IMG/VR virus record: IMGVR_UViG_3300047560_000180
Span: 1 to 28,082 of that record
Strand: one strand, 5' to 3'
DNA length: 28,082 nucleotides
Origin: a virus
Notes under the pieces: generated by a model
Seen by the model: only the letters and a program-made list of their open reading frames with translations
Told to the model about the DNA's origin: nothing
Databases searched by the model: none
In this document: positions 1 to 26,433 of the stretch, in pieces
How the letters are laid out: every line of letters begins with the position of its first letter
How positions within the stretch are numbered: position 1 is the stretch's first letter
Translations under genes and position numbers: made by a program

Positions 1-1367
1 CCATCAGAGCCTGTACCAGGACCACCAGAAGGACCTGCTGGAGGTGCTGCAACACTTGTTGCTGTTGCTGTACCAGCAGGAGCACCAGAAGGCGGCGGAG
101 CAGGAGCATTGGACTCTTGTTTTACTTCACCAGCTGGAGCACCTGTTGGAGCTGCGTTAGTTCCAGTTGCTCCACCAAGACCAAATGCGCCAGCGCCTGT
201 TTGACCTAGAGCAGCAGGAGCAGCTTGTGTTGGTGCACCTGCAGGCGCAGACATAGAAGGTGTTGATGGTGTTTCAGAAGGCGGCGGACCTATTGGATTG
301 CTAACAACTACATCGCCTGCAACACTTTTGTTTTCATCGATCTCACCATACCTTTGACCTGTTTGAATATTGATCGCAACAGTTCCATCTTTTAGTTTAT
401 TCTTAAGAATACCAACTTCTTGACCTTCTTTATTCTTTGGAAAACGTTTGAAGTCGGACTGTTTTAATTTAGCTCCACCATCACCCCAACTATTTCCTGG
501 TTCATCATAGAAAGCTTCTTTGATACCTTTGAATCCTTTTTGAAGATCAGGACGACCTTTCAGTCTTGAACCAACTTCTTTTGCATTATCGCTAACTTCT
601 TGCTGATCCGTTTTACCTTCGCTACGCTTCTTAAGCGCATCAAACATAGGATCATCCATGATGGCTTTAGTTAGCTCTTGTAATCCTTTATACAGTAAAA
701 TTGCAGCAACAGCACCAGCAGCTAAAGCTCCACCAACAGGAGTTGCGAGAAGTGTTCCCATCATTCTAAACAACGCTGGAAGTTTTCCAACAAGCTCAAG
801 TGCAATACTACCAGCAAGTCTAAGCAAGGTTTCAGCAACACCGAGCAAGCTTTTTAGCATGTTCAAAGCAGTTGGACCTAAGTTCTTTGTAATCCAACCA
901 AGTATAAGCTTTTCAAATAGATCACCAAAAAAGTTGCTCTTGTCGTCTTCTTTCTTTGGTTCTTCTTGTGGTGCGTTTACATTTACTGGAACACCATCGA
1001 TCTTTACAGGTACATCAGTTTTAGGAATAGCAAGAACTGTACGAATGAAGTCAATTCGACTTGCGTTCATCTCGTTATTGAGAACGCGGAATCTTGTTGT
1101 TATATCTTTATTGAGGTTCTTTAGAGACTTTACAACTGCACCAAGCGAAGCAATAACACTTTTAGCAATATCAGTAATCTTGGCAATTTCTTCGACTAAA
1201 CTTTGTAGTGTAGTGACAACAGAATTGACAATAATATTTGAAAATAGACCGCCAGATACGCGCTCTGCATTGTCATTAGCCACAGCAGGATTCTTACCAA
1301 AGAACTGCTTTAGATTTGGTCTATTGTCATTTGCGCCTCCAGCAGGAAGCAAAGCGGAAATAGCCAT
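1..1367 (-). CDS. Partial tail protein with coiled coil and hydrophobic core; tape-measure candidate
   Basis: The frame is open from an ATG at 1367 to the left window edge, about 455 codons, so the C-terminus is missing. The start overlaps the stop of the upstream 710-residue gene as TAATG, implying translational coupling. Residues about 45-100 are a heptad-like helical stretch rich in V, L, I and K. Residues about 165-228 form a strongly hydrophobic Ala/Leu/Gly region containing the segment GGALAAGAVAAILLY. From about residue 340 it becomes a low-complexity Pro/Ala/Gly tail. I do not recognise a family. A coiled coil followed by membrane-like hydrophobic helices is typical of tape-measure and tail-core proteins, and position downstream of a gp26/gp51 cassette would fit that. 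This role is inference; another structural or internal virion protein is equally possible. Confidence 0.75.
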   Translation of the reverse strand, partial: MAISALLPAGGANDNRPNLKQFFGKNPAVANDNAERVSGGLFSNIIVNSVVTTLQSLVEEIAKITDIAKSVIASLGAVVKSLKNLNKDITTRFRVLNNEMNASRIDFIRTVLAIPKTDVPVKIDGVPVNVNAPQEEPKKEDDKSNFFGDLFEKLILGWITKNLGPTALNMLKSLLGVAETLLRLAGSIALELVGKLPALFRMMGTLLATPVGGALAAGAVAAILLYKGLQELTKAIMDDPMFDALKKRSEGKTDQQEVSDNAKEVGSRLKGRPDLQKGFKGIKEAFYDEPGNSWGDGGAKLKQSDFKRFPKNKEGQEVGILKNKLKDGTVAINIQTGQRYGEIDENKSVAGDVVVSNPIGPPPSETPSTPSMSAPAGAPTQAAPAALGQTGAGAFGLGGATGTNAAPTGAPAGEVKQESNAPAPPPSGAPAGTATATSVAAPPAGPSGGPGTGSD

Positions 1368-3499
1368 TAGAATAATCCTCTTCCTGCAACAACACCAGCA
1401 GCTAGATTATATGGATTGAATCCTTGTTCCATCTTTCTAGGTGAATAAGATGCTGTCTGATATACTGTTCTTGTATTATTGACTACTTTATCATTCTGCA
1501 TGATAATGGTTCCACCGCGCGCTTGATTTTCTGCAATCATATTGTCGACAGCGTTTTGACTTGAAGCAGCTGCAAGAGCGTTTGCTGGTGCTCTTTGTGG
1601 TGCTGCTTCTGGTTTACCAGCAGACGCAACGGCAGCTCCAGCTCCCTTGTATTCCCAGTGCCATGGTTCGCGAGGAATGGTACTAAATCCAAAGCGACCA
1701 GCATTAGCCATTAGCCAATCGTTCTGCTTTGTTCCTTTAGAGTTAGCACCGCCGCCAAGGTCAAGAGCTGTACCCCAACCGTGGTTAGATGTACCAGGAC
1801 GAGCAGCAAGACCGCCTTGCGAATACAATCCCTTTTCTTGTGCTACTTTTACCTGAGATGCATATGAACGATAAGAGTCAGTAATAGACCAAGAAACGCC
1901 ATCTTGCTTTGCTGCTTGAACCATTGCTTCATATGCAGCAGCTGCGCTTGGTTGTAGTTTATGATTACCCTGACCAACAGATACTAGCTGTGCCTGATCT
2001 AGATTACCATTCGATCCAGTCTTTTGTGGTTCACCGAAGTTCTGTGTTGCTCCACCAGGACCTTGACCCGGAACTGCAAAGTTCCCAAACTGTGATGGAC
2101 CACCAGGTACACTTGATGCTTGTGGAACAGCAAATGTACTACCAGCGGCAGCAGTAGCAGCTGCTGGACCGCCAGCTAGACCTTCACCCTTTGCATATTT
2201 CATAGCCGTGTCAATGCGCTTCTGTCTATGTGCTCCAGACGAACGCTCGTAGTATTGGTCGACATACGCAGCAGCTTGCCCAGCATCTTGCGCTTGACGA
2301 ATCATACCGCCAGCTCTTTTTTCGTTATTGTTTAGTTCCCAGTTGATGAACTCAAGCTGTTCTTGGAAATTAGATTCACGAATAGGCTTGCCATATGTGC
2401 GCTGAAAGATAGCTTGGCGATCTGGATGCCATTGTGCTAGACCATATGCTTTGCCGCTATCTCCAACTGCGTTTGTTTTGAAGTTAGACTCTGCTTCGAT
2501 ATTAGCAGCAATACCAATAGCCTGTGCGCGAGTAAATCCCTTCTTCTCGAAAAAATCGATTGCCTCTTTTGCACTGCCAGTAGCAGCTACACCCGGTCCA
2601 GCATATCCTGCACCTGGACCAGCTCCTGCAGGACCACCACCGGGCGCAGCTCCGCCAGGTCCACCAGCAGGAGCTTCTTTGTTTTCACCACCAAGCATTG
2701 CTCCAACAGCTGCGCCAGCAAGTGCAGCAAATCCAATTTGCTTTGCAGCCTTCTTCATGCCTGCAACAGGACCGCGCGGCTCTTTGATCTTTTCTTTTTG
2801 CTCTTTTTCTTTAGCTACTTTCGCAGCTTTCTTTGTTACAGCAGTTTTTATTTCACCAGCTTTAGCTGCTTTAGAAGCACCAACACCCTTAGATGGTTTT
2901 GATTTAGCACCGCCAGCTTTAGTTGCTGTCTTTACTCCAGTCAGCGATTCGATAACTTTATCACGGAGATCGTCGTTCTGTTTGATTAGATCAGAGACAA
3001 CCTTTTCGTGTTGTTCGGTTAGATTGGTAATAACCTTTTCAACTTCACCAAAAGCATTTGGTATAGTCGTAAGAATCTTTTCGTGGCTTCTAGCTAGATT
3101 TGATGTTGCTTTGACAACACTACCCAGTTCACGACCGATCTTGCGCTCGGCAGTCTTCTGATCTTGCGAAACAGTTTCTGTAGGAGCTACAGCTTTTTGA
3201 ACAGCAGCTTTCTTTGTTGCAGTTTCTTGTGATAGAATATCAGCAAGACGACCAGTTAGCGGCTGACCGTTCTGATCGACAATGTTTCCCTTTTTGTCTT
3301 TATAGAACTTGGACTTGCCAATCTTACCAATGACTTGACCGAAGCCTTTGACCTTTTTCTTTTGCTTGGCTTGTCTAACTGGAGCAGGGTCGTCAGGAAG
3401 CGAAGGCTGCGCAGACAGTGCTTCTGCTGCAGCTTTCTTAGCACTATCGCTACCCTTTTCAAGGATAGCTCTAAGAATCTCTTCGTCTTCCTTTGACAT
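1367..3499 (-). CDS. Tail lysin with tail-lysozyme and VanY-type M15 peptidase domains
   Basis: This 710-residue protein probably cuts peptidoglycan during DNA injection. Residues 1-250 are charged and helical, with coiled-coil stretches around 120-190, then a short Ala/Gly hydrophobic stretch (255-271) and a Gly/Pro linker. Residues about 308-438 match the phage tail lysozyme family (Phage_lysozyme2): NIEAESNF with likely catalytic Glu337, then GKAYGLAQW. After a second linker, residues about 513-618 match the D-Ala-D-Ala carboxypeptidase (VanY, M15) family, with zinc ligands His573 and Asp580 in SNHGWGTALD and His614 in EPWHWEY, and probable catalytic Glu611. The ATG directly abuts the stop of the gp51-like ORF (TAAATG). 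With no lysozyme in the gp5 parts of this phage, it is the obvious source of the cell-wall activity. It could also act as part of a tape-measure system. Confidence 0.85.
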   Translation of the reverse strand: MSKEDEEILRAILEKGSDSAKKAAAEALSAQPSLPDDPAPVRQAKQKKKVKGFGQVIGKIGKSKFYKDKKGNIVDQNGQPLTGRLADILSQETATKKAAVQKAVAPTETVSQDQKTAERKIGRELGSVVKATSNLARSHEKILTTIPNAFGEVEKVITNLTEQHEKVVSDLIKQNDDLRDKVIESLTGVKTATKAGGAKSKPSKGVGASKAAKAGEIKTAVTKKAAKVAKEKEQKEKIKEPRGPVAGMKKAAKQIGFAALAGAAVGAMLGGENKEAPAGGPGGAAPGGGPAGAGPGAGYAGPGVAATGSAKEAIDFFEKKGFTRAQAIGIAANIEAESNFKTNAVGDSGKAYGLAQWHPDRQAIFQRTYGKPIRESNFQEQLEFINWELNNNEKRAGGMIRQAQDAGQAAAYVDQYYERSSGAHRQKRIDTAMKYAKGEGLAGGPAAATAAAGSTFAVPQASSVPGGPSQFGNFAVPGQGPGGATQNFGEPQKTGSNGNLDQAQLVSVGQGNHKLQPSAAAAYEAMVQAAKQDGVSWSITDSYRSYASQVKVAQEKGLYSQGGLAARPGTSNHGWGTALDLGGGANSKGTKQNDWLMANAGRFGFSTIPREPWHWEYKGAGAAVASAGKPEAAPQRAPANALAAASSQNAVDNMIAENQARGGTIIMQNDKVVNNTRTVYQTASYSPRKMEQGFNPYNLAAGVVAGRGLF

Positions 3500-3685
3500 T
3501 TATCGCCTTGTTGCTTTTTCTTGTTCTTCTTTTAGTTTCTCTAGATGCTCAATAAGCATCTTGACGTAAATATCTCTCTCCCACGGTATCATTCCATCTA
3601 TATCACTCAGCGAGTATTTGTGGTGCTGCATCAACGAAAAATTAGTTTTATAATAATTTGCTAGTGTATTATGAGAGAGGATCAT
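3500..3685 (-). CDS. 51: gp51-like small hub-assembly protein, probably made as a gp26 frameshift extension
   Basis: A 61-residue product is read if ATG 3685 is used; a TTG at 3688 would add one residue. It contains HHKYSLSDIDGMIPWERDIY followed by a charged C-terminal helix, which I recall from the small gp51-like hub-assembly proteins of T4-like cyanophages; no alignment was run. The ATG overlaps the gp26 stop (TGATGA). Both possible starts lie 15-18 bases from the only nearby Shine-Dalgarno-like GGAGGG, which is too far for normal initiation. The frame is exactly -1 relative to gp26 and joins it at a T8 run, so the product may be mainly a gp26-gp51 fusion of about 298 residues, like the G-GT tail-assembly chaperones of other tailed phages. 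Separate coupled translation remains possible. Confidence 0.65.
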   Translation of the reverse strand: MILSHNTLANYYKTNFSLMQHHKYSLSDIDGMIPWERDIYVKMLIEHLEKLKEEQEKATRR

Positions 3686-4395
3686 CAAAAAAAATCAGAC
3701 AGTCCCTCCAGCGTGACTGTATCTTCTTGCCCACAGCCCTTGCACTTATAGCTAAACGTATGCTTTAGTTTTGGCATCGTCGCAATAAACTCCATGATCT
3801 TAGCAAACTGCTGAGTGTTCAACGAGTCAATAAAGTCCATCGCATCCTGTAGATTATCTGGCTCATAGACATTCTCTTCGTCATAGACGGAGACAATACA
3901 CTTGGCAATCATCTTTAGCTCGTCGGTACCATCATTGACTAGCTTGATATCGCTGATCGTTGGATAGCGCATAACAACGCCAAGATTATCAGTGATCTTG
4001 ATCTTATTAGTATGCTTCTCGTTCTTCTCGACCTTGACTCGTTCCAGATTGATTTCAACTGGTGTTACAGCTTCACACGCAATACCAGAATAATTTACAC
4101 CACCAGTATGCTTATATTCTAGCTTGATAACTTCACCAACCGACTTAGCTCTTAGATTGAGGAACAAATATTCCAGATCAAAGAACGGTAGATCGGATAC
4201 ACTCACATCGCTATCTAATACACATGCAGACAATACGTCTTTCACTGCATCGATCATCGAGTTCTGATCTTCGGAAGTTGCTGCCATAAGCAGCGCTTTT
4301 TCTTCCTTGACTAGAAATGGTCTAAAAGAAACACGCTGTCCAGTTGAAGGCAGTTCAATCGAAAAACGTGGTGCTGCTAACTTAGGTAACGCCAT
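3685..4395 (-). CDS. 26: gp26-like baseplate hub protein (T4_baseplate family)
   Basis: This 236-residue protein has the look of the T4 gp26 baseplate hub family: an N-terminal beta-rich segment with the phrase FRPFLVKEEKALLMA, a central domain, and a C-terminal CxxC (Cys218, Cys221) in YKCKGCGQ before a short tail LEGLSDFF. T4 gp26 is about 208 residues, so the length fits. The start has a clear AGGAG Shine-Dalgarno at about 4403-4407 on the minus strand. In T4, gp26 takes part in assembling the central hub in the cytoplasm. The last codons contain an internal GGAGGG and a T8 run leading to the next ORF in the -1 frame (see the frameshift entry). It lies downstream of gp54, as in a tail-hub operon. 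Confidence 0.8.
   Translation of the reverse strand: MALPKLAAPRFSIELPSTGQRVSFRPFLVKEEKALLMAATSEDQNSMIDAVKDVLSACVLDSDVSVSDLPFFDLEYLFLNLRAKSVGEVIKLEYKHTGGVNYSGIACEAVTPVEINLERVKVEKNEKHTNKIKITDNLGVVMRYPTISDIKLVNDGTDELKMIAKCIVSVYDEENVYEPDNLQDAMDFIDSLNTQQFAKIMEFIATMPKLKHTFSYKCKGCGQEDTVTLEGLSDFF
3688..3709 (-). promoter_or_regulatory. Probable programmed -1 ribosomal frameshift signal (gp26 to gp51)
   Basis: Reading the minus strand, the end of gp26 contains GGAGGG (3709-3704), nine bases, then eight consecutive T (3694-3687) and the gp26 stop TGA (3687-3685). The bases T TTT TTT (3694-3688) form a canonical X XXY YYZ heptamer in the gp26 frame. Slipping back one base continues as TTG ATG into the gp51-like frame with no stop. 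An SD-like sequence about 10 bases upstream of a slippery heptamer is the stimulator arrangement known from dnaX. I did not find a convincing downstream stem-loop. Confidence 0.65.
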
Positions 4396-9353: not shown

Positions 9354-9743
9354 ATGGCAGAACTAGGTACAGTTCTTGGGCAAGACGGATTGAAATGGTG
9401 GATCGGGATCGTTGAGGATCGCGGTACAGGGCAGTTCTCGGGTAAAAAGGACGATCTAAAGCTGGGTCGCATCAAGGTCCGCATCAAGGGAAAACACACG
9501 GATAATAAAGGCGACTTGCCAACGAGTGAACTTCCATGGTGTTATATTCTTATGCCAATGACGTCTGCTGGTATCTCTGGTGTCGGTCATTCTCCGACTG
9601 GAGTTGTTGAGGGTTCAAAAGTGTTGGGCTTCTTTATGGACGGTGATGGCGAGCAAGTTCCTATTGCTTTTGGTGTGCTTCCGCATATTCAACAGAAAGA
9701 AGATACTGATCAGAATTCAATTGGTTCTGGAGGTAAAATGTAA
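9354..9743 (+). CDS. 5: gp5 N-terminal OB-fold protein (split gp5)
   Basis: This 129-residue product equals in size the N-terminal OB domain of T4 gp5, which docks the spike onto the gp27 trimer. Visible features are the opening WWIGIVEDRG, KLGRIKVRIKGKH, LPWCYILMPMTSAGISGVGHSPTG and VLGFFMDGDGEQVPIAFGVLPH, the usual strand order of gp5/VgrG OB folds. The frame ends right after this domain with no lysozyme and no spike. Those follow as separate genes or are absent, so this is a split gp5. AAGGA precedes the ATG. The stop overlaps the next start (TAATG), with GGAGG inside the last codons serving the next gene. Confidence 0.85.
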   Translation: MAELGTVLGQDGLKWWIGIVEDRGTGQFSGKKDDLKLGRIKVRIKGKHTDNKGDLPTSELPWCYILMPMTSAGISGVGHSPTGVVEGSKVLGFFMDGDGEQVPIAFGVLPHIQQKEDTDQNSIGSGGKM

Positions 9744-10546
9744 TGGCAAGTGTAAAGATTATTCCACTTGCTACGTCTAATACGAGCCCTACGCTTACGG
9801 GAACGGTAAACTATAAGCGTTTCGACGATAGTGGTGTGCCGCGTGAAGACTTCTATGTCACGGTCAATTACACAAAGTATAAGCCGTTCGATGGTAATCT
9901 GGGTCTGGACGAGACAACATCACCAGCTACATGGAAGCTGCACTTCTCGCAAACACTGTATCCAGGTACATACGAAGTAGAAGCGAATGTCGTCGATATT
10001 GCGAGCAATTCATTATTAGCGACTGATTATAATCCAAATGGGCTTATTATCAATCAGCTTTCGCAAAAAGAATATAAGCAAAAGAATCCAACTCTGCTTG
10101 AAAAGGTTGCGACAGTTTCTTTGCTTATGGCAAGTCTGGATAAATTATTTGGTGGTAAGAACGGTATTGCTCCAGTCCCTTCTGTCCATCCAACACTAAA
10201 CGATGATGCTTCTACCTCGCTCGTTGGTCGTGGTAATGAAGAACGTGCTGAAGATAGCATGGCTAAAAGCAAAACTAAGACTGTACGCAAGGATAATGTA
10301 AATCCAAATCCAGTAGCAAATAAAGCAGTCGATCCAACAGCGAGCGCTGCGGGAACATATTCGCTCACAGATATCGAACGCGCTGCAGCTGGTGATCTCA
10401 ACGTTATAGATAATCTTGATTTTCTTTCTGCTGGATCTTCTCCCTCAGATACTATTAGTGCTCTAGACGAAACAAAGCAGATACTTGAAGACCAAAAGAA
10501 AATTCAGGGAACTGGTGAACTAGCTGTTGGCTCGGCGTTTGGATAA
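9743..10546 (+). CDS. Ig-like-domain protein between the two halves of gp5
   Basis: A 267-residue protein not recognised as a T4 protein. Residues 1 to about 95 look like a bacterial-type Ig-like beta-sandwich: SPTLTGTVNYKRFD, FYVTVNYTKYKPFDGNLGLD, TWKLHFSQTLYPGTYEVEANVVD, the pattern common in phage virion surface domains. A short hydrophobic helix (about 125-137) follows, then a polar, Ser/Asp/Lys-rich region to the end with little predicted structure. It is translationally coupled to the OB-fold gene and followed by the beta-helix gene, so it may bridge or decorate the hub and spike. That role is inference from position. Confidence 0.7.
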   Translation: MASVKIIPLATSNTSPTLTGTVNYKRFDDSGVPREDFYVTVNYTKYKPFDGNLGLDETTSPATWKLHFSQTLYPGTYEVEANVVDIASNSLLATDYNPNGLIINQLSQKEYKQKNPTLLEKVATVSLLMASLDKLFGGKNGIAPVPSVHPTLNDDASTSLVGRGNEERAEDSMAKSKTKTVRKDNVNPNPVANKAVDPTASAAGTYSLTDIERAAAGDLNVIDNLDFLSAGSSPSDTISALDETKQILEDQKKIQGTGELAVGSAFG

Positions 10547-10555
10547 GGAATAATA

Positions 10556-11428
10556 ATGACAAGTTGGGATCAACAAGAACCGGGTGGTAAGAAGTCTCAG
10601 TATCTAGGTAATCATACCTATACGACTGAGGCTGGTCATGTTGTCGAATTCGATAATACCCCTGGTGATAGACGCGTTCATATCTATCATGCTTCTGGTA
10701 CATTCATCGAGATCAAAGACGATGGAGCAATGATTACCACAGCAAAGGGTGATCGTCAGGACTTCAATGATAAGGGTAAGCACGAAGTCGTTACTGGTGA
10801 GTTCGGTCTTACAGTCAATGGACCGATCAATATCTACTGCACGGGTAATGTTATTCAGCATGTCGATGGTAATTACGAACTAAATGTCGGCGGCGATCTC
10901 AAAGTAAAGGTTGGCGGCAACGAGCTTCGTGAAGTTATTGGCGATCAGCGTACACAGGTCAACGGTAAGACAGCACACAGAACGTCTGATAATCGCGACG
11001 AAGTAACTGGTGGTAATAAGACAGAGACGATCAACCGCGAATATTTCCAGTCGGTGGGAACAGAAGCTACATTGATTTCCGGCGGCAGCTTTGCCATTCT
11101 TGCCGGTGATGATTTCCAAGCTATTGCTACGGATCAAGTTGGTATTGGTGCTGGAACTATTGCTGCATTTGCTGGCGGAACTCAGGTTCAGATCGAATCT
11201 AAAACAGATGCAACATTTATAAATGCCGGCGATGCTGTCCAGATCAATGGTAATGGAGGTCATCCTTCGTACATATTTTCAAAAGGATCTGGTAAAGCTG
11301 GTGTCTTCTCAAATAGCAACGATGTTGTTATTGGTGCTGGTGGTCTAGCTAAGACTCAGACCGATGGCGGAACTAAGCTTGAAAATCAATCTGTTGTTCC
11401 CGCCTCTGGTAAACTCGTTCCAAGTTGA
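10556..11428 (+). CDS. gp5 C-terminal beta-helix spike protein
   Basis: This 290-residue protein carries the membrane-piercing needle. Residues 1-80 form a beta-rich base (GHVVEFDNTPGDRRVHIYH, GTFIEIKDDGAMIT) like the region joining the OB domain to the helix in VgrG/gpV proteins. Residues 87-142 contain seven consecutive octads with G at the third position, starting at 87, 95, 103, 111, 119, 127 and 135, five of them adjacent VxG octads. VxGxxxxx is the known repeat of the T4 gp5C triple-stranded beta-helix. Further strands run to about 235, and the C-terminus is Gly/Ser-rich. I see no HxH tip motif. It is the third piece of a split gp5; AAGGA precedes the ATG. Confidence 0.85.
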   Translation: MTSWDQQEPGGKKSQYLGNHTYTTEAGHVVEFDNTPGDRRVHIYHASGTFIEIKDDGAMITTAKGDRQDFNDKGKHEVVTGEFGLTVNGPINIYCTGNVIQHVDGNYELNVGGDLKVKVGGNELREVIGDQRTQVNGKTAHRTSDNRDEVTGGNKTETINREYFQSVGTEATLISGGSFAILAGDDFQAIATDQVGIGAGTIAAFAGGTQVQIESKTDATFINAGDAVQINGNGGHPSYIFSKGSGKAGVFSNSNDVVIGAGGLAKTQTDGGTKLENQSVVPASGKLVPS

Positions 11429-20034: not shown

Positions 20035-20046
20035 TTGGAAGGTATC

Positions 20047-23000
20047 ATGGCTTCAACAGCTAATTCAGTTTCACTTTCAACGAACTTCAACGTAGCTCCG
20101 TTCTACGACGATTTTGATGAAAGCAAAAACTTCCATAGAATTCTTTTCCGTCCAGGATTGGCTGTGCAAGCTCGTGAGCTTACACAAATGCAAACGATCT
20201 TTCAAAACCAGATTGATCGTTTTGCTGAGCATATCTTCCAAGAAGGTTCTTCGGTTCGTGGCTTTGAACTAAACTACGATCCAGATTATCAGTATGTAAA
20301 GCTGCGCAACAACAACTCAGTTGGTACATCAGTCAACGCAGCTGCGTTCTTGAACAATGTTATCAAGGGCGCAACATCTGGCGTTCTTGCTACGGTTATC
20401 AAGACGAACGATGGTTCCGAAGCTAATACACCAAACTTCAAGACTTTCTATGTCAAGTATCTTTCTGCCAATACTACAACTGGCTATCGCTACTTCGCAA
20501 ACAACGAAATCATCAATTCGGTTACAACAGTTGGTCTAGCTGCTAATACAATCACAGCTGCCCAAGGTGGATCAACTGGCGCTGCTGCAGCTCTCAAGGT
20601 CGGTTCTGGTATCGTATATGCTAAGGATCATTTCATTCGTGTTCCTGAGCAAACAGTTCTTGTTGGCAAATATACTTCAGCTCCATCTGCTCGCGTTGGT
20701 TTTGATGTAACAGAATCCATCATCACAGAAACAACAGATGGAACGCTGCTTGATCCAGCATCTGGTTCATATAACTATGCTGCTCCAGGCGCTGCTCGCC
20801 TCAAGCTGGAAATAACTATCAAGTCACAAGCACTTACAACAGCTGTATCGAATACATTTGTTGAACTGATGCAAGTCAAGGACGGTGCTGTTCAGTCTAT
20901 TGCTTCTCGCCCAAAGTATTCAGAAATCCGCAAGTATCTTGCTGAACGTACATACGACGAGTCTGGCGACTATGTTATTCGTGGTCTGAACGTTACGATG
21001 CGTGAGCATCTCAAGTCAGGTAACAATCAAGGTCTCTATACATCTGGTGAAGGTGGCAATACAAGCCTTCTTGTTGCAGTTGTTGATTCTGGTAAAGCTT
21101 ATGTAAAGGGTTTCGATAACGAAATTATCGTATCATCTCGCATAAACGTAAACAAGGGAACAACATACAACGTAACAGAAAGTGCCAAAGTTCTTCCTGA
21201 CTACTCAAACTATATTCTTGTAGATAACGTCTGCGGTCAGTGGGATGTCAATGGTCAAGGAACTGTTTCTCTCCGCGATAGCCAAGCCAATTCAATCTAT
21301 AACAACGCTTACTCGGTGACTGGCTTTGCTGGCGCACACATTGGTCGCGCTCGCGTGCGTGGTATCGAACTTGACTCAGGAACTCCTGGAACTCAAGACG
21401 CAAGATATCGTTTGTATCTGACAGATGTTGTAATGAACTCTGGCAAAGATTTCCGTCAGACACAGTTTATTGGTTGGAACGGCGGAACTGGTGCAGCCAA
21501 CGGTAAAGCTGACATTGTTGCATCGACAGGTCTTTCTGCTAACGCAGTTGGTACAACATTCAACCGCGCAATCTTCCGTCTGCCATCAAAAGCTACAAAG
21601 ACTTTGCGTAATGCGTCGAACGTTCTGAACAACGATTTCAACTTCTACAAAGCATTCGATATCGCATCGGTTGCTAACAACGGAACATTCTCTATTTCTA
21701 GCGGTGATTCATCAGAAACCTTCGATGGTTCTGGATCACTTTCACCATCAGCTATCAATTCTGACTTCTATGTTGTTGCATCAAGCGCAGCTAATACAGT
21801 TCCGCTAACTGGTAACGTATCCATCACTTCTGGTGGTTCAACTATAGCTTGGACTGGTGCTGGTACATCAACAATCTTTGATAAGCAAATTTGCCCTGGC
21901 GATATTCTCAATGTTGGTACAGCTGGCGACTTTACTGTCAAGTCAGTTGATAGTGCAACATCGATTACAGTAGAAAAAGCTGCAACAGGCACTTGCACAA
22001 ACGTAAGATTCTTCAAGAAGATCAAGTCTGGTCAAGTTATCAATCTTGCTGGTGTTGGTTCACAGGGTACCACTATTACTGCTGGAACTCGTACAGTATC
22101 TGTGGCTAATACTGTAGCATCGATTGATCTGAAAGAACGTTTCCGTTCAACTTTCCCAGCTAAAGCTGTTGTCAAGCTCAACAAGATCGATGGTCAAGAA
22201 GCTGCTAAGACGGTTGTTCGTAATCGTCTTGTTCAAATCTATATTGACAACTCGACATATGCAACAACTGCAACTGAGTTCAATCTTGGTCTATCAGACG
22301 GTCTGCGTATTGTATCTGTTCGTAGAAAAGCTGGTTCAGCCTTTAGCTCAACAACTGAAGGTACGGACGTAACAGCAAACTTCATTCTCGACAATGGTCA
22401 GAATGATAACTACTACGATCACGCCAAGCTAAAGATGAATCCATCGAAGCCATTGACGCTTTCGTTGAATGATCGTCTGCTTGTAACACTTGATCACTTT
22501 ACACATAGCTTCTCGTCAGGTATCGGCTACTTCTCTGTAGATTCATACCCAGTCAACGATGCTACAGCTGCTACTGATACAACAAAAATCTTTACTTACG
22601 AGATTCCAATTTACGTCTCGAAGAGTTCTGGTGGCGCTTACGATCTGCGTGATTGCATTGATATGCGCCCACGTATCATCGATACAGCTACAAGCACAGC
22701 AATCATCGGCTCGGTTTCTACAAACCCAGCAACATCAACATCTGTCTATCAGCCAACTGGTGGTCTACATTTCTCGCCACCAAACGAAGACTTTACAACT
22801 GATCTTCAGTATTATCTTGGTCGCTCTGATGTTGTGGTTATGTCACCAGAAGGTCGTATCAACGTAATCGCTGGAACACCTTCGGTCAATCCAAAAGCTC
22901 CTGCGGAAATTGGCGAAAATATGCCACTCGCAACGCTAACGATTGCTCCATATCCATCACTTCCTTATGAAAATGCTCGTCGTGCAGATCGTATTGATTC

Positions 23001-26000
23001 GGCAAACAAGATCAAGAAGGCAATGAATCCTCGTTTCACAATGAAGGATATCGGCGAAATCTCGAAGCGCATTGATCGTCTTGAATACTATACTTCGTTG
23101 AACATGCTTGAGAAGAGCACAAACGAATTGCTTATCCGTGACGAGAACGGCTTGAATCGTTTCAAGAATGGTTTCCTTGTTGATCCATTCAATGGTCATG
23201 GTATTGGTAACGTATACGATCCAGACTATAAGATTTCGATTGACGACAAAGCCAGCGAAATGCGTCCACTCAACGTATATCGCAATACAAAGCTGCGCGC
23301 AGATCTTCTATCATCAACTCATGTTGTTCGCACAAACGTAACAACTGCTGGTGTCTATAAAGATCAGGTTATCACACTGACAACAACTCCTGCTTCAGGA
23401 ACATTTGTTGCTGGTGGTACGGTAACATCTGGTGGTTCAACTGCTACGATCCGTCATCGCGTTGGCGCAAAGCTATATGTTGAAAATGCAACAGGTAACT
23501 TTGCTGCTTCTGCAACGATCACAAGCAATGCAGTCAATGCTACAATTTCTTCTGTAGCAGTAACAGCGCCTGGTGATATTGTTACACTTCCTTACTCACA
23601 TAAAGTTCTTGTTCAGCAACCATATGCTACAACAACAAGAAATGCTGCTGGTACAAGTTATAGCTGGAAGGGTGTTCTATCACTCGATCCAGACAATGAC
23701 TACTGGTATGATACAACTGCTAAGCCAGAAGTCAATATCAATATTGATGGTAACGCTGACGCTATTGCATATATCGCAACAACAATGGGTATCAAGTGGG
23801 ACGACTGGAAAACAACTTTCGTTGGTGAACCAGTTCTTGTATCACAGAATACTATTGAAACAAGTCGTTCGTCAGACTCATCTCGTGTAAACGGTGGTAC
23901 TGAAACTACAACTACTACTTCGTTTACAACAGAGTCTGTCTACTCAGTTCCATCAACAGAAGTTCGTAGCGGTACTCAGTTCAATACATCTATCACAGAT
24001 GTGAAGCAGACTGTTGGTAATGTTGTAACAGATGTTTCGATCCAGCAGTATATGCGTGCAAGAACAATTACGGGTAACGCAGTTGGCATGAAGCCATCGT
24101 CACGTCTGTATGCGTTCTTCGATGGTATCGATGTATCTGCATATATTACTCCATTGACACAAGCTGAATTCCTTTCAGGTCTAAAGAATTCGCAAGGTGC
24201 TTCGGTTGCACCGACATCCGCTCGTGGTTCTGCTCTGTATTCCAATACAGACGGTACTGCATACTTCTTGTTTACAATTCCAAACAACGATGGTCTTCGT
24301 TTCCGCACAGGTTCGAAGCGCCTTCGTCTAACTGACAACGCTCAAAATAGCAGCTCATACGGTCAGTTTACAACTTCAGCTGAAGCAGAATACTCAGCAG
24401 AAGGTTTGTCGCTTGGTAAGTCGGATATTACTACATCAACACGTAAGGTTGGTGTTTGGGCTACGAATCCTATTGAAACAAGAAATGTTACTTCGTTCAA
24501 TACGGAATACTCGTTCTCGACAACAGTTGATACGTCATTCCAGCAGGATCCACCAAACAACGATCCTATTGCTCAGACATTTACTGTTGATGCTTTGAGA
24601 GCAGCCAAGAACAAGACAAGCGGTCTATATCTAACAAAGCTTGATCTGTTCTTTGCAACAAAAGATCCAAAGCTTTCTGTTACAGTTCAGCTGCAAGAAG
24701 TGGATAAAATTACTGGAACAGTTACACCACGTGTTGTTCCATTCTCTTCTGTTACACTAGTTCCAGCAGATGTCAATGCAAGCGAAACAGATAGCACGAT
24801 CCCAACTCAAGTTTACTTCCCTGCTCCAGTATATCTGCAGGAAGGTTCAGACTACGCTATTGTAATTGTTCCAGAAGCATCAAATCCAAATTATACAGTT
24901 TGGACTGCTGTTCTTGGTGATAACGATCTAGCCACGGGTGGACGTGTTGCTGTTCAGCCAGCTTCTGGCTTCCTCTACACATCTTCGAACCAACGTTCGT
25001 GGGTACCTGTAGAAAACGAAGACATGAAGTTTACAACATACTATGCTGAGTTCGACAAGTCGGCTGATGGTCTTCTTATCCTCAAGAACGACAAGAAAGA
25101 CTTCTTGACTGTAACTTCGCTGACTGGAACATACGTCAACGCAATTGGTGAAGTTATCCACGGCGAAACTCGTATCCTTGGTACGTTTGCTAATACCAAA
25201 GCTGTTGCAGCTCAGATCGCAAACGGAACTTGCTACGTTCAAAGTTCCAACGCAACAGCTACTATCACAGGTGTTGTAACCGAGTATAACTCAGCTTATA
25301 TCATGGCTCGTGTCGATACTTCAGCTAAGTTTGCCAATACAGACTTTGTTCGTCTGCGCTTTAGCTCACCAACATCTGGCGTGATTGTTGCTAACTCGAC
25401 TGGTAAGATCAAGGGTACGATTACTCCAGTTGGTCGTGTAGAATACTATGATGCAGTCAACTACGCAAACACGAAGCTGTATGTTGCTAACCTTGCTTAC
25501 ACAACTTCTGGTGTAACATCGTCTTGCACATACAATCGTATTCTCAAGGCTAACACTTGGTTGTCAACACAATCAACAAATATCAAGTCGAAGGTTCTTT
25601 CGGTTGATAACGTTCCTATGGATTATGTTCAGGTATTTGCTGGAACAATCATTCCTTCAAATACATACGTTTCTTCTTATGGTAAGTTTGCCACAAGCTC
25701 GTCAGCTAAAGATAGCTCTTATGTTTACTTGAATCTGAATAACTCTGACGAACTTGATGCAACTCGTTATATCATCAGCCGCTCAAACGAATCAAATACG
25801 AGTGTTTCATCTTCAACAATGAACACTGGTTCAGTAGACATCAAGCTCCAGATGAACTGCCGTAACATTACAGCATCGCCTGTGGTTGATTTGTCTCGTA
25901 TTGCTTTGACTGGTGTTCAAAACTTGATTAGCACGGAAGGTGAAATTGCTTCTTCGGAAGATAACGTATCTAACGGCGGTAACTCAAAGTCACGCTATAT

Positions 26001-26433
26001 TACTCGTATCGTGACACTGGCTGACGGTCAAGATGCTGAAGATATCCGCGTATATCTCGGTGCTTATCGTCCACCAGGAACTCAAGTTCATGTTTACTGC
26101 AAGGCTTTGAATGCGTCAGATAGCGATACATTTGCTGAACGCAAGTGGATTGAGATGACTCGCGATACAGATCAAGGCTTTACACCGACTGCTGTATACT
26201 CAAGTTCGACAGATAGAAACGACTTCCTCGAGCTAGTTTACAAGGTTCCAAGCTGGACCGATACATATAAGGCAGGTGCTAATAACTCAACAGGCATTTT
26301 CCAGTATCGTAACTCAACTGGAGCACGTTTCAATGGCTTCAAGTATTTCGCAATCAAGGTAGTTCTGACGGCAGACTCGTCGCCAAATCCACCACGTGTT
26401 CGCGAACTCAGAGCAATCGCACTACAGAGATAA
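20047..26433 (+). CDS. Giant DUF4815-type virion structural protein
   Basis: The frame is open from a TTG at 20035, but the ATG at 20047 with GGAAGG just upstream is the better start, giving 2,128 residues. The N-terminus (about 12-70) has the signature of the DUF4815 family of T4-like phages: NVAPFYDDFDESKNFHRILF, then PGLAVQARELTQMQTIFQNQ. Further family blocks are LRDCIDMRPRI, YYLGRSDVVVMSPEGRI (about 920) and EISKRIDRLEYYTSLNMLE (about 1000). A module starting DPIAQTFTVDA (about 1505-1630) and a C-terminal domain with VYLGAYRPPGTQVHVYCKA (about 2000) resemble carbohydrate-binding-like beta folds, by eye. Beta modules at 105-157 and 585-660 recur in gp7 and gp8. Probably a peripheral baseplate or fibre-anchoring protein. 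Confidence 0.8.
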   Translation: MASTANSVSLSTNFNVAPFYDDFDESKNFHRILFRPGLAVQARELTQMQTIFQNQIDRFAEHIFQEGSSVRGFELNYDPDYQYVKLRNNNSVGTSVNAAAFLNNVIKGATSGVLATVIKTNDGSEANTPNFKTFYVKYLSANTTTGYRYFANNEIINSVTTVGLAANTITAAQGGSTGAAAALKVGSGIVYAKDHFIRVPEQTVLVGKYTSAPSARVGFDVTESIITETTDGTLLDPASGSYNYAAPGAARLKLEITIKSQALTTAVSNTFVELMQVKDGAVQSIASRPKYSEIRKYLAERTYDESGDYVIRGLNVTMREHLKSGNNQGLYTSGEGGNTSLLVAVVDSGKAYVKGFDNEIIVSSRINVNKGTTYNVTESAKVLPDYSNYILVDNVCGQWDVNGQGTVSLRDSQANSIYNNAYSVTGFAGAHIGRARVRGIELDSGTPGTQDARYRLYLTDVVMNSGKDFRQTQFIGWNGGTGAANGKADIVASTGLSANAVGTTFNRAIFRLPSKATKTLRNASNVLNNDFNFYKAFDIASVANNGTFSISSGDSSETFDGSGSLSPSAINSDFYVVASSAANTVPLTGNVSITSGGSTIAWTGAGTSTIFDKQICPGDILNVGTAGDFTVKSVDSATSITVEKAATGTCTNVRFFKKIKSGQVINLAGVGSQGTTITAGTRTVSVANTVASIDLKERFRSTFPAKAVVKLNKIDGQEAAKTVVRNRLVQIYIDNSTYATTATEFNLGLSDGLRIVSVRRKAGSAFSSTTEGTDVTANFILDNGQNDNYYDHAKLKMNPSKPLTLSLNDRLLVTLDHFTHSFSSGIGYFSVDSYPVNDATAATDTTKIFTYEIPIYVSKSSGGAYDLRDCIDMRPRIIDTATSTAIIGSVSTNPATSTSVYQPTGGLHFSPPNEDFTTDLQYYLGRSDVVVMSPEGRINVIAGTPSVNPKAPAEIGENMPLATLTIAPYPSLPYENARRADRIDSANKIKKAMNPRFTMKDIGEISKRIDRLEYYTSLNMLEKSTNELLIRDENGLNRFKNGFLVDPFNGHGIGNVYDPDYKISIDDKASEMRPLNVYRNTKLRADLLSSTHVVRTNVTTAGVYKDQVITLTTTPASGTFVAGGTVTSGGSTATIRHRVGAKLYVENATGNFAASATITSNAVNATISSVAVTAPGDIVTLPYSHKVLVQQPYATTTRNAAGTSYSWKGVLSLDPDNDYWYDTTAKPEVNINIDGNADAIAYIATTMGIKWDDWKTTFVGEPVLVSQNTIETSRSSDSSRVNGGTETTTTTSFTTESVYSVPSTEVRSGTQFNTSITDVKQTVGNVVTDVSIQQYMRARTITGNAVGMKPSSRLYAFFDGIDVSAYITPLTQAEFLSGLKNSQGASVAPTSARGSALYSNTDGTAYFLFTIPNNDGLRFRTGSKRLRLTDNAQNSSSYGQFTTSAEAEYSAEGLSLGKSDITTSTRKVGVWATNPIETRNVTSFNTEYSFSTTVDTSFQQDPPNNDPIAQTFTVDALRAAKNKTSGLYLTKLDLFFATKDPKLSVTVQLQEVDKITGTVTPRVVPFSSVTLVPADVNASETDSTIPTQVYFPAPVYLQEGSDYAIVIVPEASNPNYTVWTAVLGDNDLATGGRVAVQPASGFLYTSSNQRSWVPVENEDMKFTTYYAEFDKSADGLLILKNDKKDFLTVTSLTGTYVNAIGEVIHGETRILGTFANTKAVAAQIANGTCYVQSSNATATITGVVTEYNSAYIMARVDTSAKFANTDFVRLRFSSPTSGVIVANSTGKIKGTITPVGRVEYYDAVNYANTKLYVANLAYTTSGVTSSCTYNRILKANTWLSTQSTNIKSKVLSVDNVPMDYVQVFAGTIIPSNTYVSSYGKFATSSSAKDSSYVYLNLNNSDELDATRYIISRSNESNTSVSSSTMNTGSVDIKLQMNCRNITASPVVDLSRIALTGVQNLISTEGEIASSEDNVSNGGNSKSRYITRIVTLADGQDAEDIRVYLGAYRPPGTQVHVYCKALNASDSDTFAERKWIEMTRDTDQGFTPTAVYSSSTDRNDFLELVYKVPSWTDTYKAGANNSTGIFQYRNSTGARFNGFKYFAIKVVLTADSSPNPPRVRELRAIALQR

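Follow-up and report, generated by a model that had tools for sequence, protein, structure and literature searches.

The DNA analysed here, which we refer to as the window, is a stretch of 28,082 nucleotides of the IMG/VR virus record IMGVR_UViG_3300047560_000180. Its minus strand carries a gp26-like open reading frame of 236 amino acids (3685..4395), which matches PF12322 (E=5e-66) and phrog_150 (E=4e-71), followed in the -1 frame by a gp51-like stretch (3500..3688) that matches phrog_634 (E=1e-27). The next gene downstream (1367..3499, minus strand) is tape-measure-like, matching phrog_9570, ‘tail length tape measure’ (E=2e-31), as well as PF18013 and PF02557, and its product contains a phage tail lysozyme domain and a VanY-type peptidase domain. 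The phrog_150 profile, which has 282 positions, also matches the gp51-like stretch, at profile positions 236-278, and this was the first hint that the family has fused members. Elsewhere in the window, a gp5-like baseplate hub/tail lysozyme is split over 9354-9743, 9743-10546, and 10556-11428; phrog_430 matches the gp5-like N-terminus in the first of these and the middle part in the last, with an unmatched ORF of 267 amino acids between them. A very large ORF of 2132 amino acids with a TTG start lies on the plus strand (20035-26433).

The gp26 gene ends in CTG GAG GGA CTG TCT GAT TTT TTT TGA. Read 5' to 3' on the minus strand, this end contains a Shine-Dalgarno (SD)-like GGAGGG (3704..3709), a nine-base spacer ACTGTCTGA (3703-3695), and a run of eight Ts (3694-3687), of which the first seven form the heptamer T TTT TTT (3688..3694) and the eighth is the first base of the gp26 TGA stop codon (3685..3687). 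The zero frame is GAT TTT TTT TGA, which puts the heptamer in phase for a tandem -1 slip, and the -1 frame is open from the heptamer to 3500. A TGA stop codon in the -1 frame (3695..3697) directly abuts the 5' side of the T run. This confines the overlap of the two frames to the heptamer, which is thus the only place where a -1 slip can join them. The predicted product of such a slip would add 62 codons to the 236 of gp26, giving a fusion protein of 298 amino acids. As for separate initiation of gp51, the gp51 frame has an ATG (3685-3683) that overlaps the gp26 stop codon (TGATG), and GGAGGG lies 15 nt from the TTG at 3688 and 18 nt from this ATG. A sequence-only reading of the same DNA had already placed a slippery heptamer in the correct phase, with the gp51-like -1 frame open exactly across it, with which the sequence agrees, and its coordinates, spacings (15-18 nt), T8 run, and 298-residue product all proved exact when the sequence was read again.

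Blastn matches to cyanophages cover the junction itself, and the arrangement was found far beyond the window. Scanning IMG/VR with gp26 returned 78 loci, of which 74 had an intact junction; in every one of these 74, T TTT TTN stood in the same phase and was followed by 56-68 open codons in the -1 frame. In the first set of records, 84 of 90 had the in-phase heptamer, and four more single-protein scans yielded 161 analysable loci, every one of which contained it (161/161). Overall, in-phase T TTT TTN was present in 245 related records, some of which may be near-duplicates. Isolates from other groups, namely S-ShM2, ACG-2014d, phiM12, Vibrio V07 and D484, Aeromonas AsFcp_1, Stenotrophomonas Yut3, Rhizobium RHph_I34, and Melnitz-3 share both heptamer and phase. 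The second codon of the heptamer varies (TTT, TTC, TTG); the first, a Phe codon, is TTT in every case and is invariably preceded by a T, which is what tandem slippage requires. When lineages were clustered at <80% identity, giving 25 that were chosen for having the heptamer and are not fully independent, the first junction Phe codon was TTT in all 25, compared to a TTT:TTC ratio of 146:113 elsewhere in gp26, and T-TTT-TTN was used at none of the 24 other Phe-Phe dipeptides in the gp26 proteins of these lineages. Across 26 close relatives of the window, GAT TTT does not vary at all and CTC TCT, right behind the slip, hardly does, compared to a mean synonymous identity of 0.57. Judged by these comparisons, the junction heptamer is more than a product of chance. 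They also dispose of the notion that a single gene was split by an error of sequencing or assembly or by a recent frameshift mutation; the change of frame does sit in a homopolymer, but the split recurs, with identical phase and an open -1 frame, in 245 records drawn from many assemblies and isolates, which refutes it.

Six records (L080, L087, L088, L092, L093, L094) lack the canonical heptamer and have kept the -1 extension. Most of them are Ackermannvirid-like, and they comprise Vi01, Dickeya Kamild, two Klebsiella phages, Vibrio D528, and Aeromonas TSW001. In place of T TTT TTN, their junctions read A ATT TTC, A CTT TTC, or similar, which resembles G GTT TTC, the slip site of T7 gene 10. 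In Vi01, no ATG, GTG, or TTG precedes the conserved part of the extension. A GTTTTT motif similar to these exceptional junctions has been reported for Vandenendeviridae (PMC12846349).

Downstream of the heptamer, in the clade of the window, the post-slip codons ATC CTC TCT CAT AAT show almost no synonymous variation. RNAalifold applied to this clade paired UCCUCUCUCAU with GUGGGAGAGGG, located in the Pro-Trp-Glu-Arg (PWER) codons approximately 90 nt further on. In the window, the 5' arm UCCUCUCUCAU (3671..3681, minus strand) starts 6 nt past the heptamer and the 3' arm in the PWER codons reads GUGGGAGAGAG (3574..3584, minus strand). A hairpin of GGAGGG with a downstream CCTC around the slip site was also considered, and was rejected because RNAalifold pairs the CCTCTC block with the PWER codons instead. 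Rfam gave no matches within 3300-4000. Within the close clade, covariation was nearly uninformative (one double change), and wider lineages were used instead. Each lineage was compared with 400-1000 synonymous-codon resamplings, with positions counted from the first T of the heptamer as 0. Stems with a 5' arm starting at +11 to +17, which is 4-10 nt past the heptamer, were enriched, with 12 of the 25 lineages at p<0.05 (Fisher 3e-11), or 7 of 19 (3e-5) when a single lineage was taken per stem class, and at seven other 5' arm positions these 25 lineages showed no or barely any enrichment. Since the position +11 to +17 had been picked after seeing the data, the test was repeated with 31 further lineages, in which this position was once more the only one to stand out (10/31, Fisher 1e-8). 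At the level of sequence, there is thus selection for a downstream stem across lineages.

The 3' partner of the stem differs between lineages. It lies in the PWER codons, closing a loop of 86 nt, in the window group and in L048, L090, L200, and L243, and at +61-69, closing a loop of 38 nt, in L045, L055, L064, L185, and L238, and phiM12 and L065 use other 3' partner sites. No such stem was found in L044, L066, and L084. The third-position pair +17:+116 was C-G in 19 cases, U-A in 9, C-A in 7, and U-G in none (permutation p=0.0005, a value that ignores relatedness), and in the class with the partner at +61-69 a compensatory change is seen, with GCTGAGTCA/TGGCTCAGC appearing as GCTGAATCA/TGATTCAGC. 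In many relatives the PWER stem has 11 bp with GUGGGAGAGGG as 3' arm. The stem of the window itself is degraded by a change of AGG to AGA, which creates a C.A mismatch and leaves 9 bp between 3679-3671 and 3584-3576 (p=0.025). The total folding energy of the window was not below the synonymous null (z +0.6). For both reasons, the role of the stem is less certain in this phage than in its relatives; a predicted structure at ~5-9 nt is present for the group and weak in the window. It seems somewhat more probable than the opposite that a long-range stem drives this frameshift in T4-like marine phages, in which the 5' arm stayed fixed ~6 nt past the slip site and the 3' partner moved in the course of evolution (~38, 45, or 86 nt, in different conserved gp51 codons). 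The same stimulator would then have been re-established repeatedly, despite strong constraint on the protein.

The sequence-only reading had missed this stem, for which the comparative support is much stronger than for the SD-like element, and had instead named the cassette SD-stimulated. GGAGGG is indeed at the place it gave, and its pairing with the anti-SD is strong (-9.8 kcal/mol), but this strength barely exceeds what synonymous coding of Leu-Glu-Gly would give: the encoded tripeptide predicts most of it, with p=0.14 for the window and a Fisher value of 0.013 for the 25 lineages, and several lineages with the heptamer have no good SD. It had proposed aligning the junction across related phages to look for a conserved slippery run and GGAGGG; the run was kept in the 245 records, but GGAGGG is only weakly conserved beyond the protein. 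GGAGGG may stimulate slippage, for which the sequence offers little support.

The T8 run of the window, and the runs of T7-T8 in many close relatives, raise the question of whether the shift could occur during transcription, with RNA polymerase adding a U in the run so that a share of the mRNAs carries the fused frame. Runs of seven or eight Ts are within the range where polymerase slippage is possible. However, 161 of the 245 sites (21 + 140) consist of T6 followed by C, which cuts the run to six and keeps the heptamer phase, and this suits re-pairing of tRNAs rather than polymerase slippage. The selection for a stem at ribosomal spacing argues in the same direction, and we consider transcriptional slippage very improbable.

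Alternatively, a small free gp51 could be made by termination-reinitiation at TGATG, or from the TTG or ATG driven by GGAGGG, in which case the T run would be incidental. An ATG overlaps or adjoins the gp26 stop codon in the window and in most of its close relatives (20 of 26 representatives), and several annotators list gp51 as a separate CDS. However, ATG has become ATA in nine close relatives of the window, and the gp51 frame has no ATG, GTG, or TTG among its first eight codons in 28 of 56 lineages (10/25 and 18/31 in the two sets), yet the N-terminal residues of this frame (LSHN...YYxTNF in the window group) are conserved even in the start-less lineages. In those lineages the region must therefore be made only by fusion, or from rare start codons. 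Separate initiation is also difficult to reconcile with the 15-18 nt between GGAGGG and the candidate starts, with the invariance of the T run and its phase, and with T4 gp51 being a full fusion, as described below. We therefore regard an exclusively separate gp51 as very improbable, and the TGATG overlap in the window leaves room for some free gp51 by reinitiation alongside the frameshift product. In many cyanophage genomes (ACG-2014d, KJ019082, and others) gp51 is unannotated, and elsewhere its annotated starts differ, as would be expected if gp51 is only a frameshift extension.

In T4, genes 26 and 51 are adjacent and divergently transcribed (L079 25803-27229). T4 gp26 consists of the PF12322 domain alone, and T4 gp51 of a PF12322 domain plus the phrog_634 extension. 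In profile alignments, T4 gp51 was colinear with the fusion family through the junction (E=5e-20), and T4 gp26 aligned with T4 gp51 (E=4e-10). By these alignments the two T4 proteins are paralogues, one being the short form and the other the short form plus extension. T4 gene 26 ends in GAG TTC TTT GAG TTA CTA TAA, without the slip site, and the two T4 genes make what the window's group makes by frameshifting. The sequence-only reading was right that T4 encodes gp26 and gp51 separately, but overlooked that T4 gp51 holds a complete short-form domain in addition to the extension.

A short protein and a C-terminally extended form that share an N-terminus would be typical of tail assembly chaperones (TAC), and both the frames and the colinear homology to the natural fusion T4 gp51 fit this. 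The tape-measure-like gene lies directly downstream, which is the usual TAC - tape measure gene order. When an AlphaFold2 model of the window gp26 (pLDDT 85) was compared with solved structures, 3fgx scored highest (Z 8.3), followed by the tail assembly chaperone of HK97, 2ob9 (Z 7.5), over residues 1-95, with the third row of the fold list at 4.9 and the others below 3; Foldseek alone, comparing the model with 2ob9, gave a probability of 0.72 but an E value of 0.8. A fold search with a model of the T4 gp51-like protein returned nothing usable. The predicted match of gp26 to the HK97 chaperone fold is supportive, not decisive. A review of T4 lists gp26 and gp51 as hub assembly chaperones, with gp51 absent from the particle (PMC3004832). 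The earlier suggestion that these proteins are G/GT-like tail-assembly chaperones is well supported by the invariant phase and run, the start-less frames, the colinearity of T4 gp51, and the HK97 fold match.

Our preferred interpretation, to which we assign a probability of about 0.92 on the basis of sequence comparison, is that gp26 and gp51 are one gene in which a programmed -1 ribosomal frameshift would give rise to TAC-N and TAC-NC, the slip probably being helped by the downstream stem and perhaps by GGAGGG. Most ribosomes would stop at the TGA at 3687-3685 and produce the 236-aa short chaperone (TAC-N). A minority would slip one base back on T TTT TTT, where the two Phe tRNAs would pair anew with UUU, enter the gp51 frame, which would encode the extension (TAC-C), and produce the 298-aa long form (TAC-NC). 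The RNA stem, with its 5' arm starting 6-8 nt past the heptamer, would probably aid this slip, and the upstream GGAGGG perhaps as well. By analogy with lambda gpG/gpGT, both forms would act jointly as chaperones of the tape measure protein, whose gene lies just downstream, during assembly of the tail or hub. Against this interpretation count the TGATG overlap, the degraded stem and the unexceptional folding energy of the window, the weak support for the SD, the six records with another junction, and the finding that U UUU UUU promotes -1 slippage less well than A AAA AAG when placed in E. coli constructs (PMC5009743).

Recasting these proteins as chaperones made with a frameshift is known in kind since 2022. 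The abstract of Vladimirov, Gautam & Davidson 2022 (Virology 566:9-15) reportedly presents frameshifting as apparently conserved among several T4-like groups and T4 genes 26/51 as separate TAC genes. As cited in the PRFect paper, this work found that some T4-like phages have one short and one fused chaperone gene instead of frameshifting (PMC10885494), and a 2025 paper cites it for poly-T slippery sequences in the TAC-N genes of T4-like phages (PMC12846349). According to these citing papers, the published T4-like TAC-N/TAC-NC systems and the window are alike in the poly-T slip site and in having a short and a fused form; the window differs in being a viral contig outside the named isolates. 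A long-range downstream stem was not described in the literature searched, in which the 2022 study was represented by the papers that cite it. The predicted frameshift explains why many T4-like genomes seem to miss gp51 or have arbitrary starts annotated for it, and it places these ‘baseplate hub’ proteins among the tail assembly chaperones. With the predicted long-range stem, the driver of frameshifting in a very abundant group of marine phages becomes concretely and cheaply testable.

A close parallel outside the T4-like phages is lambda gpG/gpGT and the family of Xu, Hendrix, and Duda, which share with the arrangement predicted for the window a short and a long form with a common N-terminus, a -1 shift near the end of the first gene, and a position directly upstream of the tape measure gene; HK97 is a member of these frameshifted tail genes, and its N-terminal fold may be similar to that predicted for the window gp26. 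The lambda heptamer is G GGA AAG, which differs from T TTT TTT, and compared to lambda the window protein is larger, its chaperone-like domain being followed by an additional beta-rich part, and the downstream stem of the window group closes a long loop. E. coli dnaX resembles the window in having an upstream SD-like element, a heptamer, and a downstream stem at 5-9 nt. However, dnaX uses A AAA AAG and a local hairpin, whereas the window has T TTT TTT, a predicted stem closing an 86-nt loop, and an SD-like element that is a candidate stimulator. The proteins of T4 genes 26/51 are homologous to those of the window, with T4 gp51 colinear with the predicted fusion, but T4 has two divergent genes without a slip site, and this contrast between two paralogous genes and frameshifting offers a clear natural experiment.
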